Assembly (NCBI GenBank): GCA_030429345.1
Contig: JAUIFJ010000002.1
Location: 1 to 64,000 of the forward strand
Direction: 5' to 3'
DNA length: 64,000 nucleotides
DNA from: a bacterium
GTDB taxonomy: Bacteria > CAIWAD01
Shown: positions 4,899-31,189 of the stretch, in pieces
How the letters are laid out: every line of letters begins with the position of its first letter
Numbering within the stretch: position 1 is the first letter of the stretch
Notes under the pieces: generated by a model
The model's input: the letters and a program-made list of their open reading frames with translations, nothing else
Databases searched by the model: none
What the model was told of the DNA's origin: nothing
Made by a program: the position numbers and the translations under genes

Positions 4899-6695
4899 AT
4901 GCGGACACGCCTTCTGCTCCTCCTCTTGTCCTTTCTTCTGGCCCAACCCTTTGCGGCGGCTCAGGAGATCTCGCATGGAAACGCGGCCCGTGCCCTGCGC
5001 CAGCAATCCCTTCAGCAACGGGCCCTGGGGGACTACCAGGGAGCTCTGCGCAGCATTCGACAGGCCGTGGAAATCGACGGGGATCTCAACAATCTCCGGG
5101 TCCTGCTGGATCTGCAGATTCGCCTGCGCCAACCGGAAGAAGCGCGGGAAACCATTGGTCGAATAGCGGACACCCTTCCCGGATACCCGGATCACCTCAA
5201 CGGATTCGGTGAACTGCATACGGCCGGGGCTATCGCTGCTGCCTGGTATCAACTGGACGATCGCGAAACCGCGCGCAAAGTCTGGGAGGTCATGGACCGA
5301 AGCGCGGGCAACAAGTCCGAGTCCTCCGTGCTGCTCAGCAGTTATCGCGAACTGCGGCTCTACGACGAAGCCGCTGCCTATGTCCTGCGCAAGCGCCAGG
5401 AACTTGGGCAGGGCGACCTGTGGGTATACGAGATGGCCTCCATGCTGCAATCACAGTCCCGCTACCTGGAGGCCTTTGCCGAGTACACTCTCCTGCTGCC
5501 CCAGTCCTCCAGGCATGGAAGTCTCACGAACCGTTTCCTGCGCCTGGCCGATGAATCACAGGGCGACAGCCTGCTGCTGGAGGAAATGACCGCGCGGGCG
5601 CAGCGTGAGCTGGATCTCGGCAAACCGGCGCTGGCCGGAATGGTCAACGAGGTCCTGGTGCAGCACAGGCGCTACGATCTTGCCCTGCCGCTGGTCTGGG
5701 GTCTGGACACGGACGAAAGCGGCGACGCGCCCTTCGCCCTGGTCCACACCCTGGAGGCCGATGCCGAGTATCACAGGGCTCTGCGGCTGCTCGACCGGAT
5801 CGAGGAGACTCGGCCGGGAAAGCAGCCCGAGGATCAGCGCCTGCTGATGCGCGCCCGCTGTCTGGAGGGAACCGGTCGGGCGGAAGAAGCCCTGCTGGCC
5901 TATGAGCAGCTTGCCGAGCTTCGTGGGCAGCACCGTCGCCTGGCCTTGCTGCAGGCGGCGCATCTCCTGCATCGGCCCCTGGGGCGCATCCGGGAGGCGA
6001 TCGAACACGCGCAAACCCTCGTCGAAAAGAATGCCAACGACCTGGAGGCGCGGCTTTTCCTGGTACGCCTGTTGGCGGCGGAAGAGGACTATCCAGGTGC
6101 AGAGCAGCTCAGGCTGGAAAGCATGCCCATCGCGCAACGAGACACGGAGATCCAGATCGAGCTGGAGTTCCTGGGCATGCAGCACGCCTGGTGGCAGGGC
6201 AACCTGGAACAAGCCAGAACTCGCCTCAAAACCCTGCTGGAACGGCAGAGCCGGCACCCCATCTTCAACGACACCATCGAGTTGATGGACCTGCTGGCTT
6301 TTTCAGGAACGGACTCGCTGGCCGTCTGCCGCGCGGGCGAAGCACAGCGGCTGCTCTGGATCGGCGAAGTGGATGCCGCGCTGGAGCTGTTGCGCGTCGC
6401 CTCGGAAGAGGCGGGCACGGCGGCCGAGTGGCTGGATTGGCGGAGCTGTCAGATCGCGTTGGCGGAACTGGAGCCGGAGCTCGCGTTGGCGGAAATGGAA
6501 CGCTATCGCCTGCGTCATCCGGATTCCATTCGCCTGGACCGGCTGGCATGGATGAGATACAAAGCCCTCACCCGGCAGGGCCTGGAAGCGGCCGAGCTCC
6601 TGCCCGAGCTGGAGCGCCTGCTCGCCGACTGGCCGGAGAGCATCCTGCAGGACCGTATACGCCGTGAAATCCGCATGCTGGAGGAGGTCCTGTGA
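4899..6695 (+). CDS. Secreted/periplasmic TPR protein
   Basis: 598 residues from ATG 4899, chosen because it gives a clean signal peptide (MRTRLLLLLLSFLLAQPFAAAQ); an upstream in-frame start at 4707 would bury it. The rest is a long helical solenoid of tetratricopeptide-like repeats (for example ALRQQSLQQRALGDYQGALRS, AEEALLAYEQLAELRGQ, LARLL-type hairpins). TPR solenoids scaffold protein complexes. Its stop overlaps the start of the next gene (GTGA), so the two are translationally coupled and probably work together. Confidence 0.8.
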   Translation: MRTRLLLLLLSFLLAQPFAAAQEISHGNAARALRQQSLQQRALGDYQGALRSIRQAVEIDGDLNNLRVLLDLQIRLRQPEEARETIGRIADTLPGYPDHLNGFGELHTAGAIAAAWYQLDDRETARKVWEVMDRSAGNKSESSVLLSSYRELRLYDEAAAYVLRKRQELGQGDLWVYEMASMLQSQSRYLEAFAEYTLLLPQSSRHGSLTNRFLRLADESQGDSLLLEEMTARAQRELDLGKPALAGMVNEVLVQHRRYDLALPLVWGLDTDESGDAPFALVHTLEADAEYHRALRLLDRIEETRPGKQPEDQRLLMRARCLEGTGRAEEALLAYEQLAELRGQHRRLALLQAAHLLHRPLGRIREAIEHAQTLVEKNANDLEARLFLVRLLAAEEDYPGAEQLRLESMPIAQRDTEIQIELEFLGMQHAWWQGNLEQARTRLKTLLERQSRHPIFNDTIELMDLLAFSGTDSLAVCRAGEAQRLLWIGEVDAALELLRVASEEAGTAAEWLDWRSCQIALAELEPELALAEMERYRLRHPDSIRLDRLAWMRYKALTRQGLEAAELLPELERLLADWPESILQDRIRREIRMLEEVL

Positions 6696-25221: not shown

Positions 25222-26901
25222 CTATTGGATCACGCGGGGTTTCGCGTTCAGCGTCGCCTGCAGCGCTTCCGTCAGTGTGGGGTAGCTGTGGTCGCGCAGC
25301 AGTTCGCGCAGCGCGCCGGCCTGGGCTAGGGATTCGGAACTGGCTGTATTCAGTTCGGCGAGCAGCAGCTTGACATTCGAACGCCGCGTGTCCTCGTGCA
25401 GCCGCTGCAGCACCTGGATGCCGCTGGCATCGAGCACAATGACGTGATTCATGCGCAGGATCAGCCAGCGCATGCCGCGCGACATCTCGCGGATCTCCCG
25501 CTCGAACTTGCCCGCGGCACCGAAGAAGAAAGCGCCCTGGACCTCGAAGACTTCCACATCCGCCGGAATGTCCTGCCGGCTCAGGGCGTCCGGACGGTTG
25601 TAGTACTCCGCCGAGGCCGTTCCCGGCGACCAGAGCGGCCGGACTTCGCTGGCCCGGGAGATGCGGGCCAGGATCAACAGGCTGGCCAGGACCACGCTGG
25701 CCTGGATGGCGATGCCGACACCGGCGATCACGGTCAGCAGGAAGGTCGTCAGCAGGACCAGGCGATCGTCCTTTTCCGCGTTCAGCAGATGGCGCACATT
25801 GCGGAACTCGCCCAGGTTGAGGGCCAGGCGGATCAGCAGTCCGGCCAGCGCAGCCAGCGGAATCAGGTGCAGGCGCGGCGCCAGCCAGAGCCCGATCGGC
25901 AGGAGAACCATGACCTGCAGGATGCCCGCCAGGGGGGTGCGAGCGCCCAGTCCCACATTCATCCCCGTGCGACGAATGCCTCCGCTGACCGGCATGGCGC
26001 ACAACAATCCGGAACAGATGTTGGCAATGCCGTGCGCCAGGAGCTCCGTCGGCGTATGGCTGCGACCGCCGATGCGCGCGTCGGCGACGGCCGCGCTGTG
26101 CAGCGCTTCCAGCCCCGCCAGCAGGGCCATGCTCATGGCGGGCAGGAAGAGCGCGCGCAGGTCCTCCAGGCCGGTCAGCAGGCCCGGTGTATCACGGAAA
26201 ACCGGCTGGATCTCGTCGTAGTGGTCGCCCAGGGTCAACAGGGGCTCGGGAAGCAGCGGGTTGAGGAGTGTCACGGCGACCAGGGCGATCACGCCTCCGG
26301 GAATGTGGACATTCAGCCGCGGCAGCCAGTGGTAGGCGTAGGCCGTGACCAGGGCGACGCCGATTGCTGCCGGAGAGGGAGTCTGCCAGTTGGAGAACAG
26401 GGTCTGCAGCGAACCCAGCAGGCCCTGGGCGCGCAAGGGAATGTCGAAGCCCAGGGCGATGGGCAACTGGGCGGCGATCAACAGCACGGCGATGCCGGAG
26501 CTCAGGCCGACGATCACCGTATGCGGAATGATCTGCAGCCAGCGCCCCAGATCGCTTGCCCCCAGCAGCAGGAGCATCAGCCCAGCCATCAGGGTAGCCG
26601 TCGCCAGTCCGGGCAGGCCCGACTGGTGGAGTACGGGCGCGGCAATGACGACAAAGGCCGCCACCGGCCCGCCGATCTGCACCCGGCTGCCGCCGAAGAG
26701 CGAAATCACCAGGCCGCCGATGATGGCGGCGCCCAGGGCGTATTCCGGCGCCAGGTCGCAGCCGAAGCCGACAGCCAGGGCCACGGGCAGGGCCATCAAA
26801 CCTTGCAGCAGTCCGGCCTTGAGATCGGCCAGAAAGGACGGCAGGCCATAGTCCTGAAAGCTGCTCAGAAGTCGGGGCTGGAATCCCCGGTCGCTTTGCA
26901 T
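25222..26901 (-). CDS. SulP-family anion transporter with STAS domain
   Basis: 559 residues from ATG 26901 (preceded by AGGTGGAAAGTCGG). About 11-14 hydrophobic segments from LKAGLLQGLMALPVALAVGFGCDLAPEYAL onward with the SulP consensus GGSRVQIGGPVAAFVVIAA, then a cytoplasmic STAS domain (VEVFEVQGAFFFGAAGKFEREI...VLDASGIQVLQRLHE) from about 450. The family moves sulfate, bicarbonate or dicarboxylates; the substrate is not resolvable. Divergent from the selenoprotein gene. Confidence 0.92.
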   Translation of the reverse strand: MQSDRGFQPRLLSSFQDYGLPSFLADLKAGLLQGLMALPVALAVGFGCDLAPEYALGAAIIGGLVISLFGGSRVQIGGPVAAFVVIAAPVLHQSGLPGLATATLMAGLMLLLLGASDLGRWLQIIPHTVIVGLSSGIAVLLIAAQLPIALGFDIPLRAQGLLGSLQTLFSNWQTPSPAAIGVALVTAYAYHWLPRLNVHIPGGVIALVAVTLLNPLLPEPLLTLGDHYDEIQPVFRDTPGLLTGLEDLRALFLPAMSMALLAGLEALHSAAVADARIGGRSHTPTELLAHGIANICSGLLCAMPVSGGIRRTGMNVGLGARTPLAGILQVMVLLPIGLWLAPRLHLIPLAALAGLLIRLALNLGEFRNVRHLLNAEKDDRLVLLTTFLLTVIAGVGIAIQASVVLASLLILARISRASEVRPLWSPGTASAEYYNRPDALSRQDIPADVEVFEVQGAFFFGAAGKFEREIREMSRGMRWLILRMNHVIVLDASGIQVLQRLHEDTRRSNVKLLLAELNTASSESLAQAGALRELLRDHSYPTLTEALQATLNAKPRVIQ

Positions 26902-26976: not shown

Positions 26977-27711
26977 ATGAATACGGAAGCGTACAACTAC
27001 CCTCATTTTGATCTTCCCGGTGAGAGCAAAGCCCTGGAGGACTTTCCAGGCTTTCCCTTGAGACCTGGTGAACGGGCACCGGAAGGGGTTCTGGAGCAGC
27101 TGGACGAGGAAGAGCTCAACCTTTCATCGCTATGGAAGAAGGGACCGGCGATCCTGGAGTTCGGGTCTCTCACCTGACCCTATTGCGCCCAGGCAGCGGC
27201 AGCCATGGATGAAATGGCTGAACGCTGGGCGGACCGGGCCGTGAGTTCGGTTTTCATCTACACGCGGGAAGCGCATCCCGGAGAACACTATCCGCATCAC
27301 GATTCCATGTCCCGGAAGCGGGAGCACGCCAGGGCCTTTCACGACTTGACCGGCCTGCGCCGTCCCTTGCTGGTGGACAGCCTGGACGGCAAGGTGCACC
27401 GCGCCTGGGGCCTCATGCCGAACATGACCTGGATCGTGGCCCAGGGAGGCCTTGTGGTCTACAAGGGGGCCTGGACCGGTCCGGAGGACATCGAGGAATG
27501 TCTGCAGCAGTGGCTGAAGGGCTGGCAGGAAAGGCGCCAGCGCCCGCAGGCGCCCTTCTACACGGAACGCTTGTCCTGGCGGGCGCGGGACGAGGAGGCC
27601 TTCAATGACGGCCTGCGGCGAGCCGGTCAGCGAGCCCTTGACGAATTCTACGAGACCCTGCCGGCACATCACCCTGATCGTGCCGGAAGATCGAAGGAGA
27701 AGGGCCAATGA
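26977..27711 (+). CDS. Deiodinase-like selenoprotein (in-frame UGA = Sec67)
   Basis: Read through TGA 27175-27177 the frame encodes 244 residues. Before the UGA: ELNLSSLWKKGPAILEFGSLT. After: PYCAQAAAAMDEMAERWADRAVSSVFIYTREAHPGEHYP...GLRRPLLVDSLDGKVHRAWGLMPNMTWIVAQGGLVVYKGAW. This is the iodothyronine-deiodinase-like branch of the thioredoxin fold, where the residue at this place is Sec; here it gives Sec67-Pro-Tyr-Cys70, a UxxC redox motif. Protein similarity continues in the same frame on both sides, so this is recoding rather than a broken gene. A hairpin fitting the bacterial SECIS follows. It probably reduces peroxides or disulfides; true deiodination is not implied. The stop overlaps the next start (ATGA). 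Confidence 0.85.
27194..27227 (+). promoter_or_regulatory. bSECIS-like hairpin for selenocysteine insertion
   Basis: Downstream of UGA 27175-27177 the coding strand can fold CAGCG-gc-AGCCAT-[GGATGAA]-ATGGCT-gaa-CGCTG: a six-bp upper and five-bp lower stem with a seven-base loop that begins GG. The loop starts 29 bases after the UGA. Known bacterial SECIS elements have an apical loop with an early G about 16-37 bases after the UGA, which SelB recognises. Confidence 0.75.
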
Positions 27712-28241
27712 ACCCGGTTCGAGACGCCATTCGCGGAGAGTTCAGTCGGTACCGAAAACTGGCGGAAGGGGCCATTCGCCAATTGGAGGCCCAGCAGTGC
27801 AACTGGACTCCGGCGGAAGAAGCGAATTCCGTTACGGTCCTGGTGGCCCACCTGAGCGGCAACCTGAAATCCCGTTTCACCGATTTCCTGGACAGCGACG
27901 GCGAGAAGCCCTGGAGAGAGCGGGAAGGCGAGTTCGCGGAGCGCTCATTGCCGAAAGAGGAACTCCTTGCCCTGTGGGCGCAGGGGTGGGAAGTCCTCGA
28001 AAAGACGCTGGAGAGCCTGGAAGACGCCGACTTGCCTCGCGAGGTGCGGATTCGACGGCAGCCCCTGACGGTCCTGCAGGCCCTGGAGCGATCGCTGGCG
28101 CATGTCGCCTACCATGTGGGACAGATCGTGCTGCTGGCCAGGCTGCAGAAAGGCGGGGACTGGGTCTCCCTGAGCATACCGAAAGGTCACTCCGCTGCAT
28201 ACAATCTGAACCCTGACAAGGAAAAGCCGGATGCGCGGTAG
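27708..28241 (+). CDS. DinB-fold (DUF1572-type) metal-dependent protein
   Basis: 177 residues. The four-helix DinB/YfiT-like fold shows the three-His pattern: VTVLVAHLSGNL, and ERSLAHVAYHVGQIVLLARL near the C-terminus. Relatives bind a divalent metal and some transfer low-molecular-weight thiols. ATGA overlap with the selenoprotein gene indicates translational coupling and a shared redox or thiol role. Specific activity unknown. Confidence 0.85.
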   Translation: MNPVRDAIRGEFSRYRKLAEGAIRQLEAQQCNWTPAEEANSVTVLVAHLSGNLKSRFTDFLDSDGEKPWREREGEFAERSLPKEELLALWAQGWEVLEKTLESLEDADLPREVRIRRQPLTVLQALERSLAHVAYHVGQIVLLARLQKGGDWVSLSIPKGHSAAYNLNPDKEKPDAR

Positions 28242-29531: not shown

Positions 29532-30233
29532 ATGAAAAAGCTGATTGTTTCTGCCGCCCTGATGGGCATGGCTTCTGTCGCCCTGGCCGAGGTTCAGTTC
29601 GACGTCATGTATGACGCTCTGCCCATGGATCACGGCATGCCGACCGCCACGGCCACCGTCGCCGACTTCGCCCAGATCAACGTCCAGACCATCGACTGCG
29701 CCGTCAACGGCCCCGCCGGTGTGCCTCTGGCCTACCAGTGCGTGATCCAGGCCGACGACCTGTTCCCGACCACCGCCCAGATCCTGAACCTGAGCTTCAG
29801 CTTCGACTGCGGTGGTGACATGGTCACCTACAGCCTGGACTATGCTCCCTTCAGCAACTTCTACCTGACCGGTCCCCCGTCGCCCCCCGCTCCCGGCGGA
29901 ACCGACTTCGGTATCGACGCTCAGGCTGACTGCTCTGACGTCGTCCCCACGGATACGGAAGACCTGCCCACCGCTTTCGCCCTGGGTAACGCCTATCCGA
30001 ACCCCTTCAACCCGGCCACCACGATCGAGTTCGCTCTGCCCCAGGTGGAGATGGTTAGCCTGAACGTGTTCAACATCACCGGTCAGAAGGTCGCCACCCT
30101 GGTCAACGAGACCATGGCCCGCGGTTCCTACGAGATCACCTTCGACGCTTCCGCCCTGAGCAGCGGCGTGTACATGTACACCCTGGAAGCCGGTGACTAC
30201 AGCGACACCAAGAAGATGGTCCTGGTGAAGTAA
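29532..30233 (+). CDS. Secreted protein, shared AEVQFD domain plus sorting tail
   Basis: 233 residues. Signal peptide (MKKLIVSAALMGMASVALA), then a domain of about 110 residues (AEVQFDVMYD...VNGPAGVPLAYQCVIQADDLFP...LSFSFDCGGDM...FYLTGPPSPPAP) that recurs in the genes at 30497, 32158 and 34538. Residues about 155-233 are a type A sorting tail: NPFNPATTIEFALPQVEMVSLNVFNITGQKVATLV...GVYMYTLEAGD...KKMVLVK. Predicted to cross the outer membrane through type IX secretion and attach to the surface. Ends at a strong terminator. Confidence 0.8.
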   Translation: MKKLIVSAALMGMASVALAEVQFDVMYDALPMDHGMPTATATVADFAQINVQTIDCAVNGPAGVPLAYQCVIQADDLFPTTAQILNLSFSFDCGGDMVTYSLDYAPFSNFYLTGPPSPPAPGGTDFGIDAQADCSDVVPTDTEDLPTAFALGNAYPNPFNPATTIEFALPQVEMVSLNVFNITGQKVATLVNETMARGSYEITFDASALSSGVYMYTLEAGDYSDTKKMVLVK

Positions 30234-30305: not shown

Positions 30306-30496
30306 GGGGATTCTGTCGCCGCCTGCCGGTGGGGGGAAACCTGCCTGTTGCGAGGTGTGTACAAGCTTGTGTCCGTGTGCGACAGGGAAAACAAAGAGTG
30401 CGATTTGCTTCCCCTGTAGAAAGCTCTGTTTCCTTTGACCGGCAGGAACCACTTTCAGATGTGCTTGCCACTGAACCCTGATTCAAGGAGTTGCCC

Positions 30497-31189
30497 ATGC
30501 GCTGGATTCCAGCCTTTGCCTTGCTGTTGGCCGCGACCGAGGTCCATGCCGAAATACAGATCGATTTTGATCCCGCGCTTTTGCCAGTGAATGGAGTGGT
30601 CCTGGATGTGGTGGCGGAGATCGGACAGGCTGGAGAAGCCGAAAACTTTTCGTCCTCGATTACCGGTCCTTCCGGCCAACCCGCTGTATGGCATGCCGTC
30701 TGGAACCTGGACGAGCACTTCAGCAATCCCACGCCTGTCCAGAGCATGACCGTGCACATCGACTGCGGAGGAGAACTGGTGCTGGGAACCTATACGCCCG
30801 AGGAGTTCACGGTCTTCTATCACCCTGGCCCTCTCCTGCCACCGAGCGAGCTGACCGAGTTCGAGGAGCTGGACCCGGAGCAGGTCTGCGAAGCCGTTTC
30901 CGTGGATGAACCGGCGCAGCATCCTGAGAGCTTCGGGCTGCAGGAAGTCTGGCCCAATCCCTTCAATCCTTCCGCGCGAGTGTCCTTTCAGCTGCCTTCC
31001 GCCGCTCTGACACGCCTGGAAGTCTATGACTTGCGCGGCGCCATGCGCCAGGTATTGTTAGAGGAAGAGCTGTCTGCAGGCACGCATGAATTGGTTTGGG
31101 ATCCGGCGGAGCTTGCCAGCGGCCTTTACATTCTGCATTTGAGCAGCGGGGACCTGGAGGATCAGCAGAAGGCGATTCTGATGCGATGA
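30497..31189 (+). CDS. Secreted protein, shared AEVQFD domain plus sorting tail
   Basis: 230 residues from ATG 30497, six bases after AAGGAG. Signal peptide MRWIPAFALLLAATEVHA. The shared domain is diverged (AEIQIDFDPALL...SITGPSGQPAVWHAVWNLDEHF...VHIDCGGEL...VFYHPGPLLPP). The tail is a sorting domain: NPFNPSARVSFQLPSAALTRLEVYDLRGAMRQVL...GLYILHLSSGDLEDQQKAILMR. Codon usage is less biased than in its neighbours, and no sigma-54 element precedes it, so it is probably expressed at a lower level or by read-through. Function unknown. Confidence 0.75.
   Translation: MRWIPAFALLLAATEVHAEIQIDFDPALLPVNGVVLDVVAEIGQAGEAENFSSSITGPSGQPAVWHAVWNLDEHFSNPTPVQSMTVHIDCGGELVLGTYTPEEFTVFYHPGPLLPPSELTEFEELDPEQVCEAVSVDEPAQHPESFGLQEVWPNPFNPSARVSFQLPSAALTRLEVYDLRGAMRQVLLEEELSAGTHELVWDPAELASGLYILHLSSGDLEDQQKAILMR

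Follow-up and report, generated by a model that had tools for sequence, protein, structure and literature searches.

Does the in-frame TGA of a bacterial gene resembling the iodothyronine deiodinases end translation or specify selenocysteine (Sec), and what chemistry would the full-length protein carry out? We addressed this question for a gene in the window, the stretch of 64,000 nucleotides (contig JAUIFJ010000002.1, positions 1 to 64,000) that was analysed here. A 2005 report on the Sargasso Sea described bacterial selenoproteins of the deiodinase-like type in both Sec and Cys forms (PMC1088965); a sequence-only reading of the window had likewise stated that such proteins had been noted in bacteria and metagenomes. 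The UxxC deiodinase-like family also appears in reviews of 2022 and 2026 with its function given as unknown (PMC9312934, PMC13188914). Bacterial UxxC deiodinase-like selenoproteins are thus already known, and the window protein adds a further one. New in the present analysis are the survey of Chloroflexota, the covarying SECIS element, the mapping of the deiodinase network, a UPYC clade that is entirely Sec-coding, and the displaced SECIS candidate in the window.

A single reading frame and a conserved TGA codon

Positions 26977-27711 form one frame of 244 codons, which starts at the ATG at 26977, reaches a TGA at 27175-27177 after 66 codons (…EFGSLT-U67-PYC…), its sole interruption, and continues in the same frame to the TGA at 27709-27711. 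The second mechanically called open reading frame (168 residues) begins at the ATG at 27205, nine codons past the internal TGA, and the residues in between (PYCAQAAAA) are part of one and the same protein. Reading the frame directly confirmed that the 66- and 168-residue pieces are parted only by this TGA, as had been claimed, and that a UxxC motif, here UPYC, is created at the junction. Gene callers would split such a gene in two, as with most selenoproteins, and its presence in the lineage would be missed. The features considered in this work are as follows.

26977..27711, plus strand: deiodinase-like selenoprotein gene, 244 residues, with predicted Sec at residue 67 (UPYC); based on the frame with one TGA, Pfam matches and 16 relatives with TGA
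27175..27177, plus strand: in-frame TGA, predicted Sec67 codon; based on the TGA column in relatives and on selABCD and a UCA tRNA-Sec in the genome
27184..27186, plus strand: Cys70 codon, candidate resolving cysteine of the UxxC motif; kept in 11 of 11 members of the UPYC clade
27200..27220, plus strand: candidate SECIS hairpin with a 7-bp stem and the apical loop GGATGAA (27207-27213), 29 nt after the UGA; from RNA folding
27708..28241, plus strand: gene of the DUF1572/DinB superfamily; Pfam DUF1572 at E 1.5e-55, DinB_2 and MST above cut-off
25222..26901, minus strand: divergent SulP-type transporter with a STAS domain, neighbouring the selenoprotein gene; from the ORF translation, assigned by inspection, with the start placed by eye

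A collection scan yielded one relative, from an Anaerolineae MAG, 44% identical to the window protein and with TGA at the same codon; it was then used together with the window sequence to search 400 Chloroflexota genomes. Relatives at E <= 1e-12 were found in 19 of these genomes, and TGA lies exactly at the aligned codon in 16 genes from 14 genomes, three of the genes being in one Anaerolineae genome. The frames join across the TGA in homologues as well, with up to 51% identity through it. Elsewhere the aligned column holds Cys (three homologues, of the kind that the sequence-only reading had proposed to look for at position 67) or Ser, Gly, Ala or Asp, and never Trp. On the plasmids searched, a Mycolicibacterium homologue with Cys in the Sec column was the sole relative, and the viral contigs searched contained no relative of the deiodinase-like protein. 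Maximum-likelihood analysis placed the window protein inside a clade of 11 UPYC proteins (support 100/99), all of them with Sec encoded by TGA, and its nearest relative is the protein of Chloroflexota genome G319, at 51% identity.

Five homologues (L038, L039, L040, L042 and L046) have Ala, Gly, Ser, Asp and Ser, respectively, in the Sec/Cys column and keep the histidine of the EAHP type. Judged from their sequences, they are possibly non-redox descendants of the family.

Selenocysteine machinery in the host genome

The host genome (4.24 Mb in 92 contigs, 98% complete) encodes selA (499 bits) and selB (307 bits), both on contig C87, a selD (341 bits) that itself has an in-frame TGA (…TCGUAAK…), and a tRNA-Sec (RF01852, 54 bits) with the anticodon UCA. 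The selABCD set, whose absence would have spoken most strongly against Sec, is thus present in full. This machinery, together with UGA or Cys at the aligned codon in relatives, supports the proposal that the in-frame UGA encodes selenocysteine, and the window gene is almost certainly read through with Sec at the UGA at 27175-27177.

SelD of the host is a candidate selenoprotein in its own right (KTCGUAAK; contig C46, TGA at 5893, minus strand), with a SECIS loop GGUC 17 nt past the UGA. A scan of 44% of the host genome brought the number of Sec gene candidates besides the window gene to five, SelD included, whereas most in-frame UGA candidates of that scan look like antisense artefacts. The four further ones, at C21:95362(+), C46:30371(+), C46:32272(+) and C46:56432(-), are a thioredoxin (UAGC), two adjacent TlpA/AhpC-TSA-like proteins (UPGC and UPPC) and a peroxiredoxin-like protein (UPYC).

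Among four other genomes examined from the host phylum, three also encode selA, but the DinB gene and any clear copy of the deiodinase-like gene are absent from all four; in one of them (G003), only two weak thioredoxin-type matches to the deiodinase-like protein were seen. The host lineage may have acquired the deiodinase-like/DinB pair, or the other members of the phylum may have lost it.

A displaced SECIS candidate

The window hairpin (CAGCCAU-GGAUGAA-AUGGCUG) has a 7-bp stem starting 22 nt past the UGA and a loop at 29 nt; the inner stem, including a 3-bp GCG, starts at about 18 nt. The geometry described earlier, a seven-base loop starting with GG at 29 nt, was therefore recovered, and the onset of the stem is close to the claimed 17 nt. 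The accepted range of bacterial SECIS elements is about 16-37 nt. The further proposal that this hairpin serves as the SECIS element calls for more caution. RNA folding recovered it in the minimum-energy as well as the centroid structure, but it is displaced relative to those of the relatives and not significantly better than synonymous shuffles: the 61-nt fold is stable, with z = -2.5 against dinucleotide shuffles and p = 0.093 against synonymous-codon shuffles, and the single SECIS-like hairpin gave p = 0.18 against the latter.

In the relatives, the element is regular. All 16 have a stem of 5-7 bp and a small G-containing loop that starts 16-17 nt past the UGA. In the alignment of the 11 UPYC relatives (A3), 95.5% of cells are paired, compared with 27-53% after sliding the partners, and there are seven changes on both sides of the stem; in that of the five UPP/UPI/UPL relatives (A4), 86.7% are paired, again with both-side changes and with the register shifted by one base. 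Homologues without UGA lack the hairpin as a group. The other selenogenes of the host have their SECIS loops at 14-17 nt, so that the window loop at 29 nt is displaced with respect to these, too. For the window, a family-type element at 17 nt was considered and rejected, as the sole alternative there, of 3+2 bp and -4.2 kcal/mol, is outcompeted by the hairpin at 29 nt. Because the window hairpin is displaced and not significant on its own, the case for Sec coding is built on the relatives and the machinery, not on this hairpin.

A deiodinase active-site network without the thyroid-hormone elements

The window protein matches AhpC-TSA (PF00578), Redoxin (PF08534) and T4_deiodinase (PF00837) above the curated Pfam cut-offs, with PF00837 at 29.8 bits against a gathering cut-off of 27 and AhpC-TSA scoring higher. 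PF00837 is matched by 24 of 24 relatives at E<=0.001. The best PDB match of the window protein alone is type III iodothyronine deiodinase (DIO3), and a profile of the 24 relatives ranked DIO3 (1.4e-20) and DIO2 (1.2e-14) ahead of ResA and thioredoxins (ResA 1e-12). Assignment to a deiodinase-like family in the sequence-only reading is in line with these matches. The protein is predicted from them to adopt a peroxiredoxin/deiodinase fold; an AlphaFold model built from two sequences had a mean pLDDT of 37 and was unusable.

Alignment with DIO3 paired Ser167 with S64, Thr169 with T66, Sec170 with U67, Tyr197 with Y95, Glu200 with E98, His202 with H100, His219 with H108 and Arg225 with K114; the roles of these DIO3 residues come from mutagenesis and structure (PMC7506546, PMC11592359). 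H100, P101 and K114 do not vary across the 24 family members. The window protein thus shares with the animal deiodinases (DIO1-3; 4tr3, 9h48), its best PDB profile matches, the network of SxTU, Tyr, Glu, His and His. Unlike them, it has no evident transmembrane helix, and the insertion loop AHxxDGW with Trp207 and Asp211 is missing, the corresponding loop EAHPGEHYPHH being 8-9 residues shorter. The Arg275 clamp is missing as well, with Trp166-Thr167 near that position, and Pro148 lies near the position of Phe258, where it would be placed like the cis-proline of thioredoxin-like proteins. Finally, UPPF of the deiodinases is replaced by UPYC, with Cys70 kept in every member of the UPYC clade; two relatives outside that clade (L036 and L037) retain UPPF. 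The parts missing from the window protein, the DGW/Asp211 loop and Arg275, are those tied to thyroid hormone.

With the peroxiredoxins AhpC/TSA and ResA/TlpA, the window protein shares the fold family and the matches to PF00578 and PF08534, and its UxxC corresponds to the CxxC of the ResA type. It differs from the peroxiredoxins in lacking, by eye, the canonical PxxxTxxC proline and in having the deiodinase EAHP motif. Similarity to the NCBIfam deiodinase family NF038285 is local (residues 31-165) and, at 61.2 bits against a cut-off of 250, the window protein is not a member. The bacterial deiodinase-like selenoproteins (PF00837, UxxC), likened here by description, have in common with it the family, Sec in UxxC, the Sec machinery and Cys homologues, whereas the coupling to a DUF1572/DinB gene distinguishes the window gene. 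With at least 11 soluble proteins, each of them with Sec, the UPYC clade retains the deiodinase active-site network but not the elements tied to thyroid hormone, and its members could be used to probe deiodinase-type Sec chemistry as it was before thyroid hormones.

Proposed function and competing explanations

We consider it reasonably probable that the window gene encodes a soluble (cytosolic) selenoprotein, a thiol oxidoreductase or peroxidase of the peroxiredoxin/deiodinase fold with Sec67 as the attacking and Cys70 as the resolving residue, and not a thyroid deiodinase. In this mechanism, the UGA at 27175 would be read as Sec67 by the SelB/tRNA-Sec machinery, which would place Sec at the site of the deiodinase Sec, ringed by the network of Ser-x-Thr-Sec, Tyr, Glu, His and His. 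Sec67 would act as the nucleophile against an electrophile, most likely a peroxide, a disulfide or another oxidised small substrate. The resulting selenenyl intermediate could be resolved by Cys70, three positions further along, as a selenylsulfide, which would then be reduced by thioredoxin or by bacillithiol or another small thiol. For the substrate, we prefer a peroxide or disulfide over a halogenated aromatic.

The kept proton-relay and anchor residues, and the ranking of deiodinases ahead of peroxiredoxins as the nearest solved structures, would also suit a reductive dehalogenase, in which Sec67 takes a halogen off a halogenated aromatic while His100 places the phenol and Glu98, Tyr95 and His108 relay a proton. 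We regard this as unlikely, given the loss of the AHxxDGW Omega-loop with Trp207 and Asp211, the unconserved Arg275 and the change from UPPF to UPYC; no dehalogenation genes were seen nearby, and earlier authors expected a redox role (PMC1088965). It is very improbable that the protein handles metals, metalloids or organometals such as mercury, in which case Sec-x-x-Cys would serve as ligand for the soft metal. Reviewed work connects other bacterial selenoproteins with heavy metals (PMC13188914), but inspection found no mer, ars or metal-transport genes beside the window gene or its relatives, and the proton-relay residues of the deiodinases would be left without a clear role.

Two further explanations concern whether Sec is made at all. 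The family may be real and the window copy decaying, with a degenerated SECIS element and translation mostly ending at codon 66: it lacks the hairpin that the family has at 16-17 nt, the one at 29 nt is no better than synonymous shuffles, and the gene is missing from the four other phylum genomes. This is nevertheless quite improbable, as the 244 codons contain no other stop or frameshift, all active-site residues are intact at 51% identity to the nearest relative, the downstream gene overlaps the true stop codon, and the 29-nt hairpin appears in both predicted structures. A lone in-frame TGA could in principle also be a sequencing error, mark a pseudogene, or reflect UGA reassigned to another amino acid. 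We rejected these as extremely improbable: 14 other genomes contain 16 genes with TGA at the matching codon, the window gene itself uses UGA as its ordinary stop, Trp never appears in the aligned column, and the host has complete Sec machinery.

Beyond the thiol oxidoreductase/peroxidase that we favour, a more far-reaching reading, which we think distinctly unlikely, would make the UPYC clade a Sec-only deiodinase branch that combines the proton-relay network with a built-in resolving Cys and performs reductive dehalogenation or peroxide reduction with bacillithiol, the coupled DinB protein being its thiol-transferase partner in the window organism. If true, the branch would offer a bacterial model for the origin of deiodinase chemistry.

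Gene neighbourhood and thiol context

The stop codon of the selenoprotein gene overlaps the start of the DinB gene in an ATGA at 27708-27711. The translational coupling to a DinB-fold gene noted from the sequence is thus real in its overlap, but it is not a conserved neighbourhood: no DinB homologue lies near any Chloroflexota relative, and a conserved gene neighbourhood sought in 19 loci was not found. Because DinB is not a conserved neighbour, the coupling says little about the function of the family. By eye, His48, His132 and His136 of the DinB protein correspond to the metal triad of bacillithiol/mycothiol S-transferases, for which H67/H160/H164 of B. subtilis BstA served as the reference (PMC5815605). 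A BshC homologue in the host scores 217 bits (E 4e-64), short of the cut-off of 265.8, and 11 of 14 control genomes have no such homologue. Bacillithiol is a plausible thiol for the window protein, because its DinB partner has the bacillithiol-transferase histidines and the BshC homologue falls just below the cut-off.

Other loci of the family have settings of their own. On the Mycolicibacterium vanbaalenii plasmid (L027:4420-6390), the deiodinase-like gene with Cys has an overlap with an AhpD-like gene (CEYCVAAH), and a gene with a glutaredoxin domain lies downstream, a setting that fits a thiol-redox role. Directly upstream of the Anaerolineae deiodinase-like gene, and joined to it by an ATGA-type overlap, lies a DUF3179-like gene (L009:4947-5981) with an in-frame TGA of its own (VTW-U-PVC); from their sequences, the two appear to be selenoprotein genes in one operon. 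DUF3179 selenoproteins are already in review lists. Downstream of the deiodinase-like gene of genome G222, the gene of a molybdopterin oxidoreductase similar to formate dehydrogenase falls into two frames (L065:4547-7786, reverse-complement coordinates), possibly by another Sec codon. In the window itself, 29532-30233 and 30491-31189 encode two proteins that look secreted and carry C-terminal domains of the sorting type (NPFNPATTIEFALPQ and NPFNPSARVSFQLPS), which are typical of the FCB group.
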